Shown here: positions 38,484 through 57,541 of the stretch, piece after piece
Position numbering within the stretch: the first letter of the stretch is position 1
Layout: every line of letters starts with the position of its first letter
Source: Candidatus Lambdaproteobacteria bacterium RIFOXYD2_FULL_56_26
Lineage (GTDB): Bacteria; SAR324; XYD2-FULL-50-16
Direction of reading: 5' to 3'
DNA: 64,000 nt
Assembly (NCBI GenBank): GCA_001783715.1
Contig: MFNF01000046.1
Coordinates: forward strand, 1 to 64,000
Notes under the pieces: generated by a model
The model's database searches: none
What the model was told of the DNA's origin: nothing
What the model saw: only the letters and a program-made list of their open reading frames with translations
Position numbers and translations under genes: made by a program

Positions 38484-40073
38484 TTACACCTTGAAGGTGG
38501 AAAGTTGCTCCTTCAGGTTTTCGGCCATTTTGTCCAGTTCGTGGACCGTCTGGTCCACCTGCCTGATGGAATTGGCCAGTTCGTTCATGGAAGTGCTGGT
38601 CCCCGAAGCCACCTTGTTGATTTCCCGAGCCAGATTGGAAACTTCTGTGGTGCGCTCCCGTTGTTGCTTGACCTCTGCCGCCATTTCATTGGCCTTCTCT
38701 CCAATCTGGCCCACTTTGTTGATCAACCCTCCGACCACCATGGTTGCATTCATCACCACCATGGCCCCCATGTTCACTTGGGCAAAGGTCATTTCGATCA
38801 ACCGGTTGATCTGCTGGATGGTAATCGCACTCCGGTCAGCCAAAGACTTTACTTCCTTGGCTACCACCGCAAACCCTCGGCCAAACTCCCCAGCCTTGGC
38901 TGCTTCGATGCTGGCGTTGAGGGACAGCAGGTTGGTTTGGGTGCCGATTTTGGCGATGTCTTGGGTGTGTTTGATCACCTGCCCTGTGGACTCGCCGATC
39001 CGGCCCATGGCATCTTGGATGTTCTTGAGTGCTTCCCGGCTCTGGTCGGTGTCGGCCAAGGCGGATTGGGATAGACTTAAAACCTCGCCGGCTTTTTCCT
39101 CCATTCTCTTTCCGCCTTGGTCCAAGGCCGACAGATCGTCACTGGTTCTGTTGATCGCCTGGGCGGACTGCTCGGTCCCACTGTTCACCTCCTTGGCCAC
39201 CCGTTCAATGTTCTCCACCGTAGCTGCCAATTCGGTGGTAGAGCTCGAAAGCGTAAAAGTGTAGGTGGAAATCCCCCGGATGACCTGGGCGAAGGTTGCC
39301 AACAGGTTGGAAAAGGCAGTTTTGGTTTGGGCACATTCGTCTTTGCCTGCAACTTTCAAGATGACGTTGAGGTTCTTGCTGGCTTCCACTTCAACCACCA
39401 CCTTTTTGAGGTCCATCAAAGAGGAGGTGATGTTCCCGGTGATGATGATCCCCACCCCCAAGCTGGCGGCGATGGCCAAAAACGACAGCACCAAGGTCCG
39501 CCAACGGAACTGGTTCATCTGTTCGATCGACTGGTCCATCTGGAGCTGAGCCTCGTTGACCTGATGAACCGTAAAAGGGCCCAGTACCTCAGACAAGGCC
39601 GTAGCGGTCTGGTCAAAATCACCCATGATCTTGTTGCCCCGAGTCGTCCCGCCTTCGATGTATTCATGGGCCATTTTTTGTCCCATCTGGTAATAGGCCT
39701 CTACCCGTTTGGCCAGAATCTCCGTGGCTTCAACCTGCTTTTGGTCGCCAATGGATTCAAAATGGGTGCGGAAGGTTTTGAGCCCGGCCATGAACTCTTC
39801 GTAATTCTTTTTTGCTTCCTCAAAGCCATCGTCCAGACCGTCCTTCCCTTGGGTAGCGGAAATGTCGGTCAACCATTGTTGGATTTGTACGATGTTTTTA
39901 TCCATCGTTTTGGCCAAAATAGCGTTGGGAAAGTTGACCTGCCCCACTTGGTTGATGGAGTTGTACACATCCTCGCCGACCTTGAAGGACCAGAGGCTCA
40001 AACCAGCCAAAATCAGCAACGGCAAGAGCAACACCATCAAAATCTTGTTGCGGATATTCATATCTTTTAACAT
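38484..40073 (-). CDS. Membrane methyl-accepting chemotaxis protein
   Basis: The 529-residue chemoreceptor has an N-terminal membrane helix ([19 protein letters not shown]), a helical periplasmic 4HB-like sensor and a second membrane helix near 195 ([19 protein letters not shown]). The long cytoplasmic coiled coil has the tip [20 protein letters not shown] near 385. It should control CheA, but no che genes are adjacent. AAAGGGG precedes the ATG. It lies upstream of the efflux operon but a separate promoter is likely for that. Confidence 0.93.
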
Positions 40074-43330: not shown

Positions 43331-43345
43331 AGGCACCGGCCTTCA
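43328..43345. terminator. Palindrome linking two convergent stop codons
   Basis: TGAAGGC (43328-43334) and GCCTTCA (43339-43345) form a perfect stem with a 4-nt loop. The outer triplets are the TGA stops of the methyltransferase and of the CheY-like gene. There is no T-run, so termination is only probable. Confidence 0.4.
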
Positions 43346-43765
43346 GAAATCCGGGACCGGAGGACGGTTTTTCCGTTGGTCCCGAAACTCAAAGATCCGG
43401 TCGATCTTTTCCTTGAGTTTGGCGGCATCGTAGGGTTTGGTCATGTAGCTGTCCGCCCCGGCCTTGATGGCTCCCAGCAGTTGGTCCGGTTCCTCTTCGG
43501 CGGTCACCAACAAGACCGGCAGCTTGGCGAACCGGTCACTTTCCCGGAGCCTTCCGAGCAGTTCGAGGCCGCTCATCTTGGGCATGGACCAATCGATCAC
43601 CGCCAAGTCGAAGGGTGCGGCGGCCAGCTTCTCCAGGGCCTCAAAGCCGTCTTCCACCACTTCCACGTCATAACCCAAGTTACGAAAAAGTTTTCTGGCC
43701 AAAAGACGGATCCCCAAAGAGTCGTCCACCACCAGCACCTTAATCCCAGCCCCCGAAACCGCCAT
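43343..43765 (-). CDS. CheY-like response regulator
   Basis: The ATG at 43765 (MAVSGAG) follows AAAGGA; an earlier in-frame ATG at 43807 is less well placed. The 140-residue receiver has VLVVDDSLGIR, the Asp in AVIDWSMPKMSG and Lys in YMTKPYD. It has no output domain. It is divergent from the CheA-like kinase gene, with about 90 bp between the starts, and may be its target. Confidence 0.9.
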   Translation of the reverse strand: MAVSGAGIKVLVVDDSLGIRLLARKLFRNLGYDVEVVEDGFEALEKLAAAPFDLAVIDWSMPKMSGLELLGRLRESDRFAKLPVLLVTAEEEPDQLLGAIKAGADSYMTKPYDAAKLKEKIDRIFEFRDQRKNRPPVPDF

Positions 43766-43853
43766 ACCGTTCCTTTGTGCGTTGAAATCCCGCTCGGCTT
43801 TTGTCATGCTGCGGGTAAAGATTCTTGGAAACGGTTCAGCCTAACTCTTGGGG

Positions 43854-46031
43854 ATGATCCTGCCAAGTCACATCCAACGGACCCTTGTGGAAATGGAACC
43901 TGCCTCCCCCCTGTCCTTGGCGGACCTGCTGGCGCTGTTGCAGGCGCAACTTGCGGCCCCGGATGGGTCCAAACTGCCCCTGGACCAGCAAATCTCCTTG
44001 TCCCAGGCCCTCTGGCCCGCAATGGAAGCCCTAGAACAGGCTCGGGCAGAGCAGGGGGACAAGGCCTTTGCCCTGGGCCAGAACTTGGCCCAGGAACGGA
44101 CCTCCTTTTTTAACGCCCCGCAACCCCAGACCCCCGAGGTCCTAGCCCAAACCTTGGCGGACCGGCTGGCCAACTGGGGTTCCTTGCCGGTCCTGGCTTC
44201 CCTCTCCCCTTGGGACTCCCACCTGCTCTTGGGGCTCGCCCAAGAGCTCGAGTTGGCTCCGGGCCAGCCCTTTTTGGAAGAAGGCAAATCGGTCACCGGC
44301 CTCTATCTGGTTTCTGTCCCGGTGGAGGTTTGTTATCAGGGGATTCCGTTGCCCTTGGCCATGACCGGCGGTTTGTTTGGCCAAGAGGCGGTTTTTTCCG
44401 CCCAGTTTGTGGCCCCCTTGAGCTACAAGGTAGGGGCCGCCGCTACGGCCTTGTATATCCCCCAAGAGCGGCTCCGGGAGGCCTTGTCCTGGAATCCGGG
44501 GCTGGAGCTTTGGCTGCTTGCCCAGCGGTTTTTCCGCTCGACCCAGACGCTAAACCGTTTGGCCCAGGAGTACCAAAAGGTCAACCGGGAATCCAGGTTG
44601 ACCCAAGAGATTTTGGACAACACCGGGCAGGCCAGCTTTTCGATTGATGCCAAGGGGGAGATCGGCACCAACTACTCTACCGCTGCCGCCCAATATTTGG
44701 GTGAACCCAACCCGACCGGCCTGCCCTTTGCCGACCTGATCCTGCGGGACGACAAAAAGGCGCTGCGGTCCTACTACCGGGCCTTGAACTTGATTTTTGC
44801 GGGCAACCAGTTTGACCCCAAGGTGGTGTTGGACCTCTTGCCCAAACAGGTGCACCTCCAAGACCGGGTCTTTGCGCTCCATTATTATTTTGCCGAAGAC
44901 AAGCTGGGCTTTGTGACCTCGGTTTACGTCCGCATGAAGGACCTGACCGAAGAGATCAACCAGGCCAAGCTGGCCCAAGAGACCAAGGACAAGGAACGGG
45001 AAGAAAAGGAGATCGAAGAAAAGATCCGCAGCAACATCGCCAGCTTCCTGGGCCTTCTGGAGATGATCGACAAAAACCAAGCCAACCTGGAGCGGTTTTT
45101 CCTGGAAACGGTCAACCAAAAGTACCAAGCCAACCCCCAGGACCTTCGAGGTTTGCTCAAGGAACTGCACAGCATCAAGGGGCTGTGCAGCCAATTTGGG
45201 CTCCAGGGACTCAAACATGCGTCCCACGCAACCGAGAGTGCCTTGCTCGCCCTGGGCCAAGGGAAGATCGAACAATTTGCTCCAGCCTACAAGGAACTCA
45301 AGAGCCATTACAAACACGCTCACATCCTGCTCGAAAGCCTTGGGGAAGGGATCGTGTCGGTTCTGATGGGGGTTACCTTCACCAAGCCAGACTTTTTGGC
45401 CCTCAAACAAGCGGTGTTTGCCCAAGATTGGCCGACCGCCCAAGCGCTGGTCTCCGCCAAGGGCCAAATTCCCGCTTCGTCTCTGGCCGAGAATTGGGAG
45501 GACGACCTGCTCAACCTGGGCATGAGTCTGGGCAAGGAGGTTGATTTTGAATTGGTTTGCCCCGAGGACCTGACCTTGCCTTTGGAAATGGTCCGTACCC
45601 TCAACTTTGAACTGCGCCATGTTTACCGCAACGCCATCGACCACGGGCTCGAAACCCCCGAAGTCCGCAAGGCGGCCGGGAAAAGGAGTGCCGGGAAGGT
45701 GCGGTTGACCTTGGGGTCCGAAAACGGTCAACTGTCGATTGCCGTTGAAGACGATGGGGCCGGGATCGCTTGGGAGCGGATCCTCCAAAAGGCCCGGTCC
45801 AACCCCAACCTGGACCAAACCCAGATCGAAGCCTGGGTTGCTCAGAACCAGGCCTGGAGAATCCTCTTTTTACCGGGGTTTTCCTCCCAAGAGCAACTGA
45901 CGGAACTCTCGGGCCGAGGGGTGGGGATGGATGCCGTGGCTTCGGCCATTGAAGGGCTGGGGGGCAGCTATTCCCTGGAAAGCACCTTGGGAGCCGGGTC
46001 CAAGTTCAAGTTCCTGGTGCCGCTGTCTTAA
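43854..46031 (+). CDS. Unusual CheA-like kinase with cNMP-binding, PAS-like and Hpt domains
   Basis: The 725-residue soluble protein starts with a helical region. A cyclic-nucleotide-binding-like barrel lies at about 110-215 (QPFLEEGKSVTGLYLVSV, then GGLFGQEAVFS). A PAS-like domain follows near 260-370, then a coiled coil. The Hpt helix has His in LLKELHSIKGLC near 438. A CheA-type ATP domain follows (LRHVYRNAIDHGLETP near 585, VEDDGAGI, SGRGVGMDAV). No P5/CheW-binding domain is seen. It could signal from cNMP levels to the divergent CheY. The start could be TTG 43848. Confidence 0.85.
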   Translation: MILPSHIQRTLVEMEPASPLSLADLLALLQAQLAAPDGSKLPLDQQISLSQALWPAMEALEQARAEQGDKAFALGQNLAQERTSFFNAPQPQTPEVLAQTLADRLANWGSLPVLASLSPWDSHLLLGLAQELELAPGQPFLEEGKSVTGLYLVSVPVEVCYQGIPLPLAMTGGLFGQEAVFSAQFVAPLSYKVGAAATALYIPQERLREALSWNPGLELWLLAQRFFRSTQTLNRLAQEYQKVNRESRLTQEILDNTGQASFSIDAKGEIGTNYSTAAAQYLGEPNPTGLPFADLILRDDKKALRSYYRALNLIFAGNQFDPKVVLDLLPKQVHLQDRVFALHYYFAEDKLGFVTSVYVRMKDLTEEINQAKLAQETKDKEREEKEIEEKIRSNIASFLGLLEMIDKNQANLERFFLETVNQKYQANPQDLRGLLKELHSIKGLCSQFGLQGLKHASHATESALLALGQGKIEQFAPAYKELKSHYKHAHILLESLGEGIVSVLMGVTFTKPDFLALKQAVFAQDWPTAQALVSAKGQIPASSLAENWEDDLLNLGMSLGKEVDFELVCPEDLTLPLEMVRTLNFELRHVYRNAIDHGLETPEVRKAAGKRSAGKVRLTLGSENGQLSIAVEDDGAGIAWERILQKARSNPNLDQTQIEAWVAQNQAWRILFLPGFSSQEQLTELSGRGVGMDAVASAIEGLGGSYSLESTLGAGSKFKFLVPLS

Positions 46032-46109: not shown

Positions 46110-47423
46110 CTAGCTGGCTTTGAGGCTTAAAAACTGTTCCAATGCGTCTTCACCCAAAATCTCAATCGGGTCGAGCTCCTTGGCGATTTTTAGGCTGGTT
46201 TCCAGGCTCAAGTCCAAGACCTTGCTTTGGCCCAACCGGTTCCCGGAAGCATCGGTGAGCAACACCACCAACGGGCGCTCCAAGTCCCCTTCAGGCACGT
46301 TCATCACAAAGGCCTGGGACTGGTCGGAAAGCTGGACCAAAGAACCAACCGGGTAAAGACCCAACACCCGGGAGAAATCCTCCCAAGCCACTTCGTCGAA
46401 CTCGACCCCCACCAATGCGTCCAAGTACCGCATCGCCGCAGGAGCGGTCCAGGACTTTTTGTAGGGCCTTCTACCGGTCAGGGCTTGGAAAACGTCGATG
46501 ATCGCCAAGAGCTTGGCTTCGTAACAAACCTGCTCGTAAGCCAAATTTTTGGGATAGCTGGAGAAGATCGCCGTATCCACCTTCACATGGTGCATCCAAC
46601 CCATTTCCACCGCCACCTTGGGCAAACCCATCTGTTCGAGCAGTTCCCGGCTTTTGTCCGGGTGACTGCGGAGCAGCCTAATCTGGGGGCTGTCCTTTTC
46701 AAAGGCTTCGGGGCTTTCCAAGATTTCCTTGGAGATTGAAGACTTGCCTACGTCGTGCAGCAAGGCCGCCAGCAGGGCTTCTTGGAGATTTTTAAAGGCG
46801 CTGATCCGACCGGACCGTTCACAAATCTTCTGGTAGGTCCCCGCAAAGATCGCCCCCACGTCCACACAATGGCCATAGGTCTGGTCACTCTGTTTGAGGG
46901 TCGCCAAGGCCGACATGGCATCCATGTAGCTGTTTTCAACGATCTGCTCGACCAGCTTTTCGACCGCCTTGATGTCCCCCTTGCCCTGGGCGAGGCCGTC
47001 CATCAGGCTTTCGATCGCCACTGCCGCATGGTTTCTGACCTTGGCTCCGGCTTTGGCTTTTTCCACCAACTGGTTTGCTTCGGCGACCTTTTGCACCCGG
47101 TCCAACTTGGAGGCCGCCGGGAGGACCATAAAACGGTTGAAATTTTCTTTGGCCAACTCGCTCAACAGCCGATCATTGACATTGACCAAGTGCCCCAACG
47201 CCGCAGGAAAGCCGAATACCCGCAATACCAAGTCCGTTTCGGCCAATTCGTTGACTGAACATTCCCGTTCTTTTCCGCTACGAGAGATCAGGACCTTGGT
47301 TCCCGAAAAGTTGTGTTTCACCCATTCCAGCTTGTGGGCATCCAAGGGGCCAAACTTTTCATCCAGTCCCAGATAGGCCCGGATGGTCATGCCGGGGGTC
47401 AATTGACCAAGGGTCAGTTCCAA
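46110..47423 (-). CDS. HD-GYP-type protein with an altered GYP motif
   Basis: The 437-residue protein has the HD pair in LLAALLHDVGKSSI near 220 and HPDKSRELL. The next block reads MHHVKVDTAIFSSYP, where active HD-GYP enzymes have HHExxDGxGYP. The Glu and the GYP glycine are lost. Activity against c-di-GMP is therefore uncertain. An N-terminal domain of about 150 residues precedes it. A TTG start is used. It converges with the CheA-like gene. Confidence 0.85.
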   Translation of the reverse strand: MELTLGQLTPGMTIRAYLGLDEKFGPLDAHKLEWVKHNFSGTKVLISRSGKERECSVNELAETDLVLRVFGFPAALGHLVNVNDRLLSELAKENFNRFMVLPAASKLDRVQKVAEANQLVEKAKAGAKVRNHAAVAIESLMDGLAQGKGDIKAVEKLVEQIVENSYMDAMSALATLKQSDQTYGHCVDVGAIFAGTYQKICERSGRISAFKNLQEALLAALLHDVGKSSISKEILESPEAFEKDSPQIRLLRSHPDKSRELLEQMGLPKVAVEMGWMHHVKVDTAIFSSYPKNLAYEQVCYEAKLLAIIDVFQALTGRRPYKKSWTAPAAMRYLDALVGVEFDEVAWEDFSRVLGLYPVGSLVQLSDQSQAFVMNVPEGDLERPLVVLLTDASGNRLGQSKVLDLSLETSLKIAKELDPIEILGEDALEQFLSLKAS

Positions 47424-50117: not shown

Positions 50118-50369
50118 GGGAATTCCTCTGTATTCAAAAAAGATTTCACTTTTGTCCCAAGATTTAAGGACTGCCTGAATTTACCTGCTTTTTGCCGCCT
50201 CGGAAACAAAATTTCTTTCCCCTGTTTTTTCATCCAGTTGTCTTTCGTCCGAACCAAAACGGCGGTCACCCGGCCCTGGCATCCCAAAACCAAGGTTCCC
50301 TGGACGGGGATTTTTGAAACCTGTAACTTCTCGGTGGGGATAGAGAAATTAACCTCCAAGGGGGAAAGC

Positions 50370-51602
50370 ATGGTTCCAACAATTTTAGTCATCGAAGGCA
50401 GCGAAATCCAAAGCCGGATGGTCAGCGAAGCCATCCGCCGCAGCTTGTCCCTGGAAACTTGGGAAGCGAGAAGCCTAGAGCAGGTCCAAAACTACCTCAG
50501 CCGCAAAGGGGAACGCCCCTTGATTGCGGTCAGCAACCTGCAACTGGAAGGGGCCCAGGACGGGGAGGCGGTGGATGTTTGTTTGGATGCCGGCATCCCG
50601 ACCCTCGTACTCACTTCCACCTATGATCCCGAGATTCGCAAAAACCTGTTGGACAAACAGGTGGTTGACTATGTGATCAAAAGCGCCAACTCCTTGAACC
50701 AGATCACCGGCCTGATCCGGCAGCTGATCAAAAATTCCGAGTTTGAGGTCTTGATCGTTGATGATTCCAAGCTATTCCGGCAGGAACAGTCCCGGTTGCT
50801 CCGGCTGATGCGGCTCAAGACCCATGAAGCGGAAGACGGCAAACAGGCCTTGGTGCAGCTGGCCCAACACCCGGGGATTCGGCTGGTCCTGACCGACCTG
50901 GAAATGCCCAACCTCGATGGACTGGCCCTGACCAACGAGATCCGCAAGAAATACCCCAAGGAACGGCTCGCCGTGGTAGGCCTTTCGGCCTATGCGGTTG
51001 ACGAAACCTCGGCGATGTTTATCAAAAACGGGGCCAACGACTTTCTGCGCAAACCCTTTTTGCAGGAAGAGTTCAACTGCCGGGTGATGCAAAACCTGGA
51101 GATGATCGACCTGTTTGACCAATTGCTGAAGGCGGCCCACGCCGACTATCTAACCGGCATTTCCAACCGCCGGTACTTCTTCAGCCATTCCGGCTCCAAG
51201 CTCAAGCCTCAGGTGGCCCAAGGGGTTGCGATGTTTGACCTGGATTTCTTTAAAAAGATCAACGACACCTATGGCCACGAGGCGGGGGACCAAGTCCTGG
51301 TCACCTTTGCCTCCCTTTTGGACCAACACCTGGGAAAGCTGGGCCAGGTGGCTCGTTTGGGAGGAGAAGAGTTTGCCGCCTTTTTCCTGGAGCTGCCGCC
51401 CGACCAAGCCAGAACGGCTGTGGAAGGGTTGCGCCAAGCGGTCGCTCAGACCCAGGTTGCCTTTGGCCAGCAGAGGATCTCGATGACCGTCTCGGTGGGT
51501 TTTGCAGTTGGCCCTTACGGCAACCTGGAACAATACTTGGCAGAAGCGGACAAGAACCTCTACTTTGCCAAGGAATCGGGGCGCAACCAGGTGGTGGGCT
51601 GA
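50370..51602 (+). CDS. Diguanylate cyclase with two receiver domains (REC-REC-GGDEF)
   Basis: The ATG at 50370 follows AAGGGGG, giving 410 residues. The first receiver is degenerate: its acceptor position reads AVSNLQLEG with Asn for Asp. The second is normal (VLIVDDSKLFRQE, LVLTDLEMPNLDG, FLRKPF). The GGDEF domain from about 260 has DYLTGISNRRYF, DLDFFKKINDTYGHEAGD and LGGEEF at about 330, so it should make c-di-GMP. An I-site RxxD is not evident. It is the only GGDEF in the window with an intact signature. Confidence 0.92.
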   Translation: MVPTILVIEGSEIQSRMVSEAIRRSLSLETWEARSLEQVQNYLSRKGERPLIAVSNLQLEGAQDGEAVDVCLDAGIPTLVLTSTYDPEIRKNLLDKQVVDYVIKSANSLNQITGLIRQLIKNSEFEVLIVDDSKLFRQEQSRLLRLMRLKTHEAEDGKQALVQLAQHPGIRLVLTDLEMPNLDGLALTNEIRKKYPKERLAVVGLSAYAVDETSAMFIKNGANDFLRKPFLQEEFNCRVMQNLEMIDLFDQLLKAAHADYLTGISNRRYFFSHSGSKLKPQVAQGVAMFDLDFFKKINDTYGHEAGDQVLVTFASLLDQHLGKLGQVARLGGEEFAAFFLELPPDQARTAVEGLRQAVAQTQVAFGQQRISMTVSVGFAVGPYGNLEQYLAEADKNLYFAKESGRNQVVG

Positions 51603-55622: not shown

Positions 55623-56549
55623 ATGCCATACCACGCCGGTCTGGACGAGGTTCTAGTCCCTGCCAGCCCTGGCCGGGAAGCGGTACCGCTGCGGATCCTC
55701 TACCCCACCCTAACCCCCGCCGGTCCCACTTCGCTGGGTCCCTTCCTCGCCGAGGTTGCCCCCCAGGCTCCGGTGGCCGAGGGAAGGTTCCCCTTGGTTT
55801 TGTTCTCCCACGGCTCGGGCAGTTCCAGTCTGCTGTTCCGCTCCTTAGCCAGATTTTTGGCCCAAAACGGCTTTGTGGTGGGCTTGCCCGAACACCCCGG
55901 CAACAACCGAAACGACAACGAACGGGCCCAGAGCCTTAAGAACCTGAAGGAAAGACCCAAACACCTCAAAAGCTGTTTGGACTACTTTTTGGGGACCGAC
56001 GACCGGCAAAGTCACCTGCTGGGGGACCAAGTTGCGGTCATCGGCCATTCCATCGGTGCCTACACGGGTTTAGCCCTGGCCGGTGGAACCCCGCACAACC
56101 GGCACGAGATCCTCCATTTCCCGGAGTTTAAAATTACCGGCTCCGAGCCCATCGAGGTTGAGGCGGACCCCCGAGTCAAGGCGCTGGTACTGCTGGCCCC
56201 GGCGGTCGGATGGTTTATGGCCCCAGAGGCCTTGGAAAAGGTGAGGTTGCCGATTTTAATGCTCACCGGGGAACTGGACACCCTGGCCCCCAGCTTTCAC
56301 GGAGAGATCGTCAAGGGGGGAGTGGCGGGCCGCTGCCCTCTCTTCCACCAAACCATCCCCAAGGCCGGGCATTATTCTTTTTTCAGCCCCTTTCCCGAAG
56401 CCATGCGCCGCCCCAACTTTCTTCCGGCCCTGGACCCAGAAGGGTTTGACCGGGAACAATTCCAAGAGTGGCTGCAACTGGAAGTGCTGGGGTTTTTACG
56501 GCGGTACCTCTGCGGAGAACAGCAGGGGGAGACAAACCCGAGCCCTTGA
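55623..56549 (+). CDS. Alpha/beta hydrolase (PAF-acetylhydrolase-like)
   Basis: The 308-residue enzyme has the nucleophile elbow VIGHSIGAYTGLAL near 143, an acidic residue in LTGELDTLAP and His in KAGHYSFFSP. FSHGSGSSSLLFRSLARFLA forms the oxyanion region. The class includes lipid esterases and dienelactone hydrolases; the substrate is not visible. No signal peptide. The next gene starts 86 bp later on the same strand. Confidence 0.85.
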   Translation: MPYHAGLDEVLVPASPGREAVPLRILYPTLTPAGPTSLGPFLAEVAPQAPVAEGRFPLVLFSHGSGSSSLLFRSLARFLAQNGFVVGLPEHPGNNRNDNERAQSLKNLKERPKHLKSCLDYFLGTDDRQSHLLGDQVAVIGHSIGAYTGLALAGGTPHNRHEILHFPEFKITGSEPIEVEADPRVKALVLLAPAVGWFMAPEALEKVRLPILMLTGELDTLAPSFHGEIVKGGVAGRCPLFHQTIPKAGHYSFFSPFPEAMRRPNFLPALDPEGFDREQFQEWLQLEVLGFLRRYLCGEQQGETNPSP

Positions 56550-56635
56550 GGCAGCCTGCCGGACCGGGGCCAGCCGGGTCCCTTTGCAGGCAATCGTCAC
56601 CTCCCCTGGGTCAGGGGGCTTTTGGAGTATGGGCC

Positions 56636-57541
56636 TTGAAAATCTGTTTCCTTCCCGACAACCTTTGCACAAAACCACAGCGGTCCGGCCAAAGCCTCCT
56701 GGAGATCAGCCTCGCCGCTGGGGTGGACCACACCCATGCCTGTGGCGGGGTCGGCAAGTGTTCAACCTGTCGGGTCATGGTGCTTGAAGGGGCAGAGCGA
56801 TTGTTGGCCCGAAACCCCACCGAACAGGCGTTGGCCCAACGGCTCGGGTTTGGCCCGGAGATCCGTCTGGCCTGCCAGACCGTCCCCCAGGGCGACTTGA
56901 CCCTGCGCCGATTGGTCATCGACGATGAAGACCTGGAGATCCTCCACTTCCGGCTGACCGCCTCGGCTTTGCCCAAGATCGGGGTGGAAAAGGAGTTGGC
57001 CATCCTGTTTGTGGACCTGCGCAACTTTACCCCCTTTTCGGAAGCATTGCCTGCCTATGATGTGATGCACCTGTTGGAGCGGTTCTTTTTCCTGTGCGGT
57101 CAACAGGTCAAGCAGGCCGGGGGCTGGATCGACAACTACATGGGAGACGGGTTTTTGGCCCTCTTTGACGGGGAAAACCCCAAACAAAAGTGCCAAAAGG
57201 CTTTGGCTGCCGCCCAAGGGGTGTTGGCGGCCATGCCTGGATTCAACCACTACCTCGCCAAGGTTGCGCCCCAATTCCTCAAGCTGGGCATCGGGGTCCA
57301 CTACGGCCACCTGATCCAAGGGGAGATCGGGGCAGGGGAGCAGATGCGGGAGATTGTGATCGGGGACGCAGTCAACACCGCCTCTCGGATCGAATCCGCC
57401 ACCAAGGTTTTGGGCCGACCACTCTTGGTCAGTGAAGAGGTCCGGGAGCACCTGGGGCCGGAGTTTCGGTTCGAGAGGGTGGGGGAAGTGACCTTAAAGG
57501 GCAAACAGGGGCTTTTCCCGTTGTTTTGTCCGGTAGAGTGA
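56636..57541 (+). CDS. 2Fe-2S ferredoxin-class III adenylate/guanylate cyclase fusion
   Basis: The TTG at 56636 has GGAG eight bases upstream, giving 301 residues. The first 90 residues form a plant-type ferredoxin: HACGGVGKCSTCRVMV and the fourth Cys in RLACQTVP. The cyclase domain from about 120 has the metal Asp in ILFVDLRNFTPFSE, DNYMGDGFLALF and IGDAVNTASRIES. It should make cAMP or cGMP under redox control. Upstream frame to 56468 lacks homology. It could supply the nucleotide for the cNMP-domain kinase, which is speculation. Confidence 0.9.
   Translation: MKICFLPDNLCTKPQRSGQSLLEISLAAGVDHTHACGGVGKCSTCRVMVLEGAERLLARNPTEQALAQRLGFGPEIRLACQTVPQGDLTLRRLVIDDEDLEILHFRLTASALPKIGVEKELAILFVDLRNFTPFSEALPAYDVMHLLERFFFLCGQQVKQAGGWIDNYMGDGFLALFDGENPKQKCQKALAAAQGVLAAMPGFNHYLAKVAPQFLKLGIGVHYGHLIQGEIGAGEQMREIVIGDAVNTASRIESATKVLGRPLLVSEEVREHLGPEFRFERVGEVTLKGKQGLFPLFCPVE

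Follow-up and report, generated by a model that had tools for sequence, protein, structure and literature searches.

In most textbook accounts the regulation of CheA, a chemotaxis histidine kinase of the HPK9 class, needs CheW and receptors. A CheW-less kind of such kinases is already known, since forms with other inputs occur both in Ideonella dechloratans (WP_151125625.1, 4HB_MCP-HAMP-Hpt-HATPase, without CheW by Pfam) and in the genome investigated here. In this genome four more CheW-less kinases of the Hpt-HATPase type were found by Pfam, three with CHASE4-HAMP, Ser/Thr kinase-AAA-GAF or a second CNB as input and one (C16) with HATPase_c only. The window, i.e., the whole analysed stretch of 64,000 nucleotides from a bacterium of the SAR324/Lambdaproteobacteria lineage described as marine-type, encodes a kinase which shares with them the N-terminal sensor, the C-terminal CheA-like P4 domain and the lack of a CheW domain (Pfam), but differs in its input, the CNB-PAS combination being found solely in the SAR324 class. 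Together with its CheY, the CNB-PAS kinase is a variant specific to this lineage. With CheA it has the P1/Hpt phospho-acceptor, the P4 ATPase and the CheY partner in common; different from CheA, there is neither a P3 profile match nor P5/CheW, and P1 stands shortly before P4, after built-in CNB and PAS domains. The features concerned are the following.

43848 to 46031, + strand: CNB-PAS-Hpt-HATPase (CheA P4-type) kinase, 727 aa, soluble, without P3 (by profile) and without P5/CheW, predicted phospho-acceptor H441
43343 to 43765 (longest ORF to 43807), - strand: stand-alone CheY-like receiver of a dedicated clade, DD/D/T/Y/K set intact
44118 to 44552, + strand: CNB (CAP_ED) fold, residues 91-235, degenerate phosphate-binding cassette in which residue 189 is A instead of Arg
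44622 to 44942, + strand: PAS fold, residues about 259-365
45036 to 45338, + strand: Hpt (P1) domain, residues about 397-497, HSIKG
45465 to 46028, + strand: CheA P4-type ATP-binding domain, residues about 540-727, N, G1 and G2 boxes intact
46110 to 47423, - strand: convergent HD-GYP-like protein, HD and HH present, SYP instead of GYP, a conserved kinase neighbour of putative role

The open reading frames lie where an earlier note on this DNA had put them. Candidate starts of the kinase are TTG 43848 (first codon), ATG 43854 and ATG 43893. The CheY frame (43343-43807, - strand) comprises 154 aa, or 140 aa from the internal ATG 43765, which is the better start, has an AAAGGA-like site upstream and agrees with the gene limits given in that note. 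The two genes are divergent and separated by 88 bp (43765 to 43854) or 40 bp (longest ORFs), in line with the lone divergent CheY about 90 bp away described before. Scans for promoters and terminators gave no signal exceeding shuffles. The frames are open in 15 genomes, which is not expected from chance.

For the domain analysis a total of 21 kinases were aligned, comprising the window kinase and 20 homologues from 14 other genomes. Using Pfam on the window kinase alone, just Hpt (8.7e-7) and HATPase_c (1.5e-11) scored above cut-off, and neither a cNMP nor a PAS domain did so. Over the whole set HATPase_c and Hpt (PF01627) were found in 21/21 and cNMP_binding (PF00027) in 16/21 kinases. The profile derived from the 21-member alignment matched CheA (6s1k, 3.9e-63) as well as CNB structures of the PKA/PKG/HCN type. 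An AlphaFold2 model of the kinase (single chain, mean pLDDT 78.3, pTM 0.43, N-terminus mostly <50) shows the order CNB barrel, helix 217-258, PAS-like fold, helix 367-395, bundle 397-497, short helices 500-538 and ATPase. Matches obtained from this first model with VIA-align cover residues 91-234 and 442-727 only. They align P4 with CheA 1i58 (Z 22.9, rmsd 2.5, 174 residues) and the CNB with the HCN CNB 3u11 (Z 17.0, rmsd 2.8, 143 residues), HCN matches overall reaching a Z of about 16-17 over ~140 residues. The PAS and Hpt folds were compared with a second model of residues 246-545 (mean pLDDT 86.4). The best PAS-type match had a Z of 11.6 (rmsd 2.6, 125 residues aligned), and the Hpt aligned with P1 of Thermotoga maritima CheA (1tqg) at a Z of 10.7 (rmsd 2.6, 101 residues), the kind of high score which helical bundles readily reach. 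The H-box and PF01627 agree with the latter match, and the Hpt is a complete bundle. The soluble fusion of CNB, PAS, Hpt and CheA-type P4 proposed in the earlier note was thus upheld by homologue Pfam matches, profile and folds. The domain prediction it had suggested as a check returned PF00027 in most homologues and a CNB fold at residues 91-235, and its PAS-like domain was recovered by the fold match. What it had called an Hpt helix is indeed an Hpt, but a whole bundle and not a single helix.

Residues H441, K444, G445, N595, D598, H599, G600, D635, D636, G637 and G639 were invariant in 21/21 kinases, and so were G689, R690, G691 and G693. The motif GRGVGMD is present in the window kinase as previously read, and its GRG.G core, likewise DDG.G, is unchanged throughout the alignment. 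Since the H-box and the N, G1 and G2 box residues are invariant, Hpt and ATPase look active. Searching all 21 kinases at E<=0.05, no CheW (P5) domain was detected by Pfam and no profile match was obtained for the P3 dimerisation domain H-kinase_dim (PF02895), whereas the two ordinary CheAs of the window's genome (L118, L119), used as control, match both. Only 0-5 residues follow P4 in 20/21 kinases and 34 in one; in the window kinase P4 ends the protein. As far as such motifs and profiles tell, the kinase is catalytically CheA-like, yet fails two features which define the CheA family, P3 (by profile) and P5, and its architecture supports independence from CheW. It could still work in an ordinary chemosensory array via an unseen CheW or receptor contact, as CheW proteins and CheW-bearing CheAs are encoded in the genome and an MCP gene lies at 38484-40073. 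We regard this as very improbable, given the missing P5, the lack of anything after P4 and an MCP position which is common to G003 through general synteny only: between MCP and CheY, four other genes follow one another identically in the window and G003. As the whole region is shared, the MCP was rejected as a partner. MCP-like genes were found inside the examined stretch at 5/21 kinase loci.

In the phosphate-binding cassette of CRP and PKA a Gly-Glu pair and an Arg grip the cyclic phosphate. The CNB of the window kinase has the same fold as the CNB (CAP_ED) domains of HCN, PKA and CRP, but differs from them by the absence of the cassette Arg. Over the 21 kinases the Arg column holds S in 11, A in 9 and D in 1, and Arg in none; L053 has an Arg one column away, and other homologues carry Arg or Lys nearby. 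At the acidic position of the cassette 18/21 kinases have E or D, and the window kinase has Q. As control, 8 of the 12 CNB matches of the window's genome were used (wrong-frame rows L080-0 and L081+2 removed, four others outside); five of them (L075-L079) retain the Arg and three (L080, L081, L082) do not. Because the Arg is absent, cAMP or cGMP was rejected as the leading input, and canonical sensing of either by this CNB appears unlikely. Given the PF00027 matches in 16/21 kinases, the fold may bind a nucleotide by another route. A CNB fold by itself is no proof of cAMP sensing.

The earlier note had named cNMP as the possible input and had pointed to a ferredoxin-cyclase about 10 kb away. 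The latter was found: a 2Fe-2S ferredoxin domain and a class III nucleotide cyclase are joined in one protein at 56468-57541 (+ strand), and similar, nearly full-length matches occur in G007 and G003. The former found no support, either from the pocket or from the nearby cyclase, which is unlinked in relatives. In 7/9 family genomes 12 cyclase matches were obtained, and 0/12 lie on the kinase contig, with three kinase contigs <17 kb, where a linkage could have been cut; the cyclase was rejected as a functional partner for this lack of conserved linkage. Control of the kinase by cAMP or cGMP bound to the CNB, with the ferredoxin-cyclase possibly supplying the nucleotide, would fit the CNB fold, the nine class III cyclases of the genome and the widely kept acidic residue. 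It is nevertheless improbable in view of the S/A/D column at the Arg position, the Q of the window kinase, the Arg still present in most of the other CNBs and the cyclase contigs in nine relatives' genomes.

The window's genome (G000, 3.08 Mb) holds 92 receiver-domain matches (E<=1e-6) and nine class III cyclases, a rich signalling repertoire. Among solved structures the window CheY is nearest to CheY (1.5e-29), and it scores 114 bits against an NCBIfam CheY cut-off of 189. Residues D28, D29, D72, W73, T102, Y121 and K124 (154-aa numbering) are present, D72 being D58 when numbered from ATG 43765. Like Escherichia coli CheY it is a stand-alone receiver with all catalytic residues, a W after the Asp and the Tyr and Lys positions, but it has a C-terminal extension. 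Comparing 10 family genomes in a tree of 19 selected receivers, as against the 92 matches in the window's genome, the window-type CheY branches apart from another CheY of high conservation, which in the window's genome is C19 and likely the flagellar CheY. The window CheY belongs to a distinct clade of 7 members (support 100/99) apart from it. Five of these adjoin a kinase of the CNB-PAS family (window, G003, G005, G001 and G002; 3 divergent, 2 on the same strand), while those of G009 and G004 sit away from it. In the P4 tree as in the CheY tree, the G003 sequence is the sister of that of the window. The chance of a 5/7 adjacency is roughly <1e-11, with loci that are non-independent through shared ancestry. 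Because 5/7 clade members adjoin such a kinase, the pairing is real, and the dedicated lone CheY partner suggested before has found support in its conservation. Seen from the kinase, the CheY adjoins 5/21 loci. As 16/21 kinase loci are without an adjacent clade CheY, and no clade member was found in G006, G007 and G008 at E<=1e-28, some kinases must use another acceptor.

Taken as a whole, we consider it fairly probable that the window encodes a soluble, lineage-specific, receptor- and CheW-independent CheA-type sensor kinase feeding a dedicated CheY. Beyond the domain anatomy we infer all of its mechanism. The kinase is probably gated through PAS/CNB by a ligand other than cAMP/cGMP. Both PAS and the degenerate CNB would serve in the cytoplasm as modules for sensing or dimerisation, and their signal would differ from cAMP/cGMP bound via the canonical cassette. 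In the model, the long helices 217-258 and 367-395 might stand in for the P3 dimer, a suggestion drawn from a single chain and from profiles. Upon a change of signal, P4 would phosphorylate H441 on the partner subunit and the phosphoryl group would pass from H441 to D72 of CheY (D58 from ATG 43765). Phosphorylated CheY could then act by protein contact, with either a c-di-GMP enzyme or the flagellar switch as its target. A FliM with the N-terminus LSQDEVDSLL is encoded in the window's genome. An input of the intracellular state to motility which bypasses the array, with the free-standing PAS/CNB kinase (CNB pocket repurposed, its ligand not cAMP/cGMP) acting on a dedicated second CheY that competes with the chemotaxis CheY or adds to it at the flagellar switch, is possible but doubtful.

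Among the neighbours, the HD-GYP-like gene is the best conserved and flanks the kinase at 10/21 loci; such counts are lower bounds, since the loci L045, L048 and L051 end near contig ends. All 10 sequences have HD and HH, and 10/10 have SYP for GYP, so that the neighbour protein shows two parts of the HD-GYP phosphodiesterase motif set and lacks GYP. The family occurs in 26/52 class genomes (E<=1e-25): every one of the 15 kinase-bearing genomes, the complete set of 10 f4 genomes and a single f2 genome. In f3 (31 genomes) it was found in 5/5 kinase-bearing genomes (E<=1e-100) and in 0/26 others (1e-25). FliM is present in 52/52 class genomes, so flagella alone are insufficient to explain the pattern. 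These data, together with a REC-REC-GGDEF protein near the kinase (50238-51602) and a REC-GGDEF protein in G003, could mean that the kinase serves mainly c-di-GMP turnover, with the HD-GYP-like neighbour or REC-REC-GGDEF as output and CheY as connector or phosphate sink. We judge this unlikely. Pfam finds no receiver in the HD-GYP-like protein, its gene is convergent, it is present in 10/10 f4 genomes, where no complete match to the kinase was obtained, and the f3 co-occurrence may reflect one or two ancestral events.

The distribution of the CheW-independent kinase was surveyed with the CNB-PAS profile, scoring up to 7 candidates per genome. Near full-model matches were found in 15/52 class genomes, with a partial one in G041; outside the class the full architecture was found in 0/285 genomes, of which 6 match over the CNB half only. 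Searching a named collection gave no match with the single kinase protein and 11 named loci with the CNB-PAS alignment. These are labelled SAR324, Deltaproteobacteria, Candidatus Lambdaproteobacteria or bacterium, and the named relatives are metagenome genomes. Of plasmid records 451 match the kinase, 0 of them at 80% query coverage, and none match residues 1-500. A Burkholderia match (H4) has no annotation at that place. Among the literature matches listed there is no paper on a CNB-PAS-Hpt-P4 kinase, which does not imply absence from print. In the P4 tree the 21 CNB-PAS kinases form one group (95/91). The CheW-less state there takes 3 changes (bootstrap 2-3), of which the starred branches force just 1, the deep forks being open and the branches long. 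The other CheW-less kinases of the genome may thus have the same origin or a separate one, and P5 may have been lost or may never have existed in them.

Combining CheA chemistry with built-in sensors and lacking a coupling domain, this conserved family offers a compact soluble system for studying how Hpt and P4 are gated in the absence of an array. That one genome holds several CheW-less kinases with varied inputs also bears on the relationship between CheA and ordinary sensor kinases. The second CNB-Hpt-HATPase kinase of the genome (L081; L114 3413-5236, + strand) has 607-611 aa, and its pocket Arg is absent. A very large fusion in a single frame (L116 10243-15999, - strand) joins Ser/Thr protein kinase, AAA_16, GAF, Hpt and CheA-like HATPase over 1918 aa within the stretch and 1982 aa in the genome. 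Immediately upstream of a homologue of the focal kinase that bears a receiver, L055 (3351-5378, + strand) encodes a CNB fused to an ordinary hybrid kinase of the HisKA-HATPase-receiver type.
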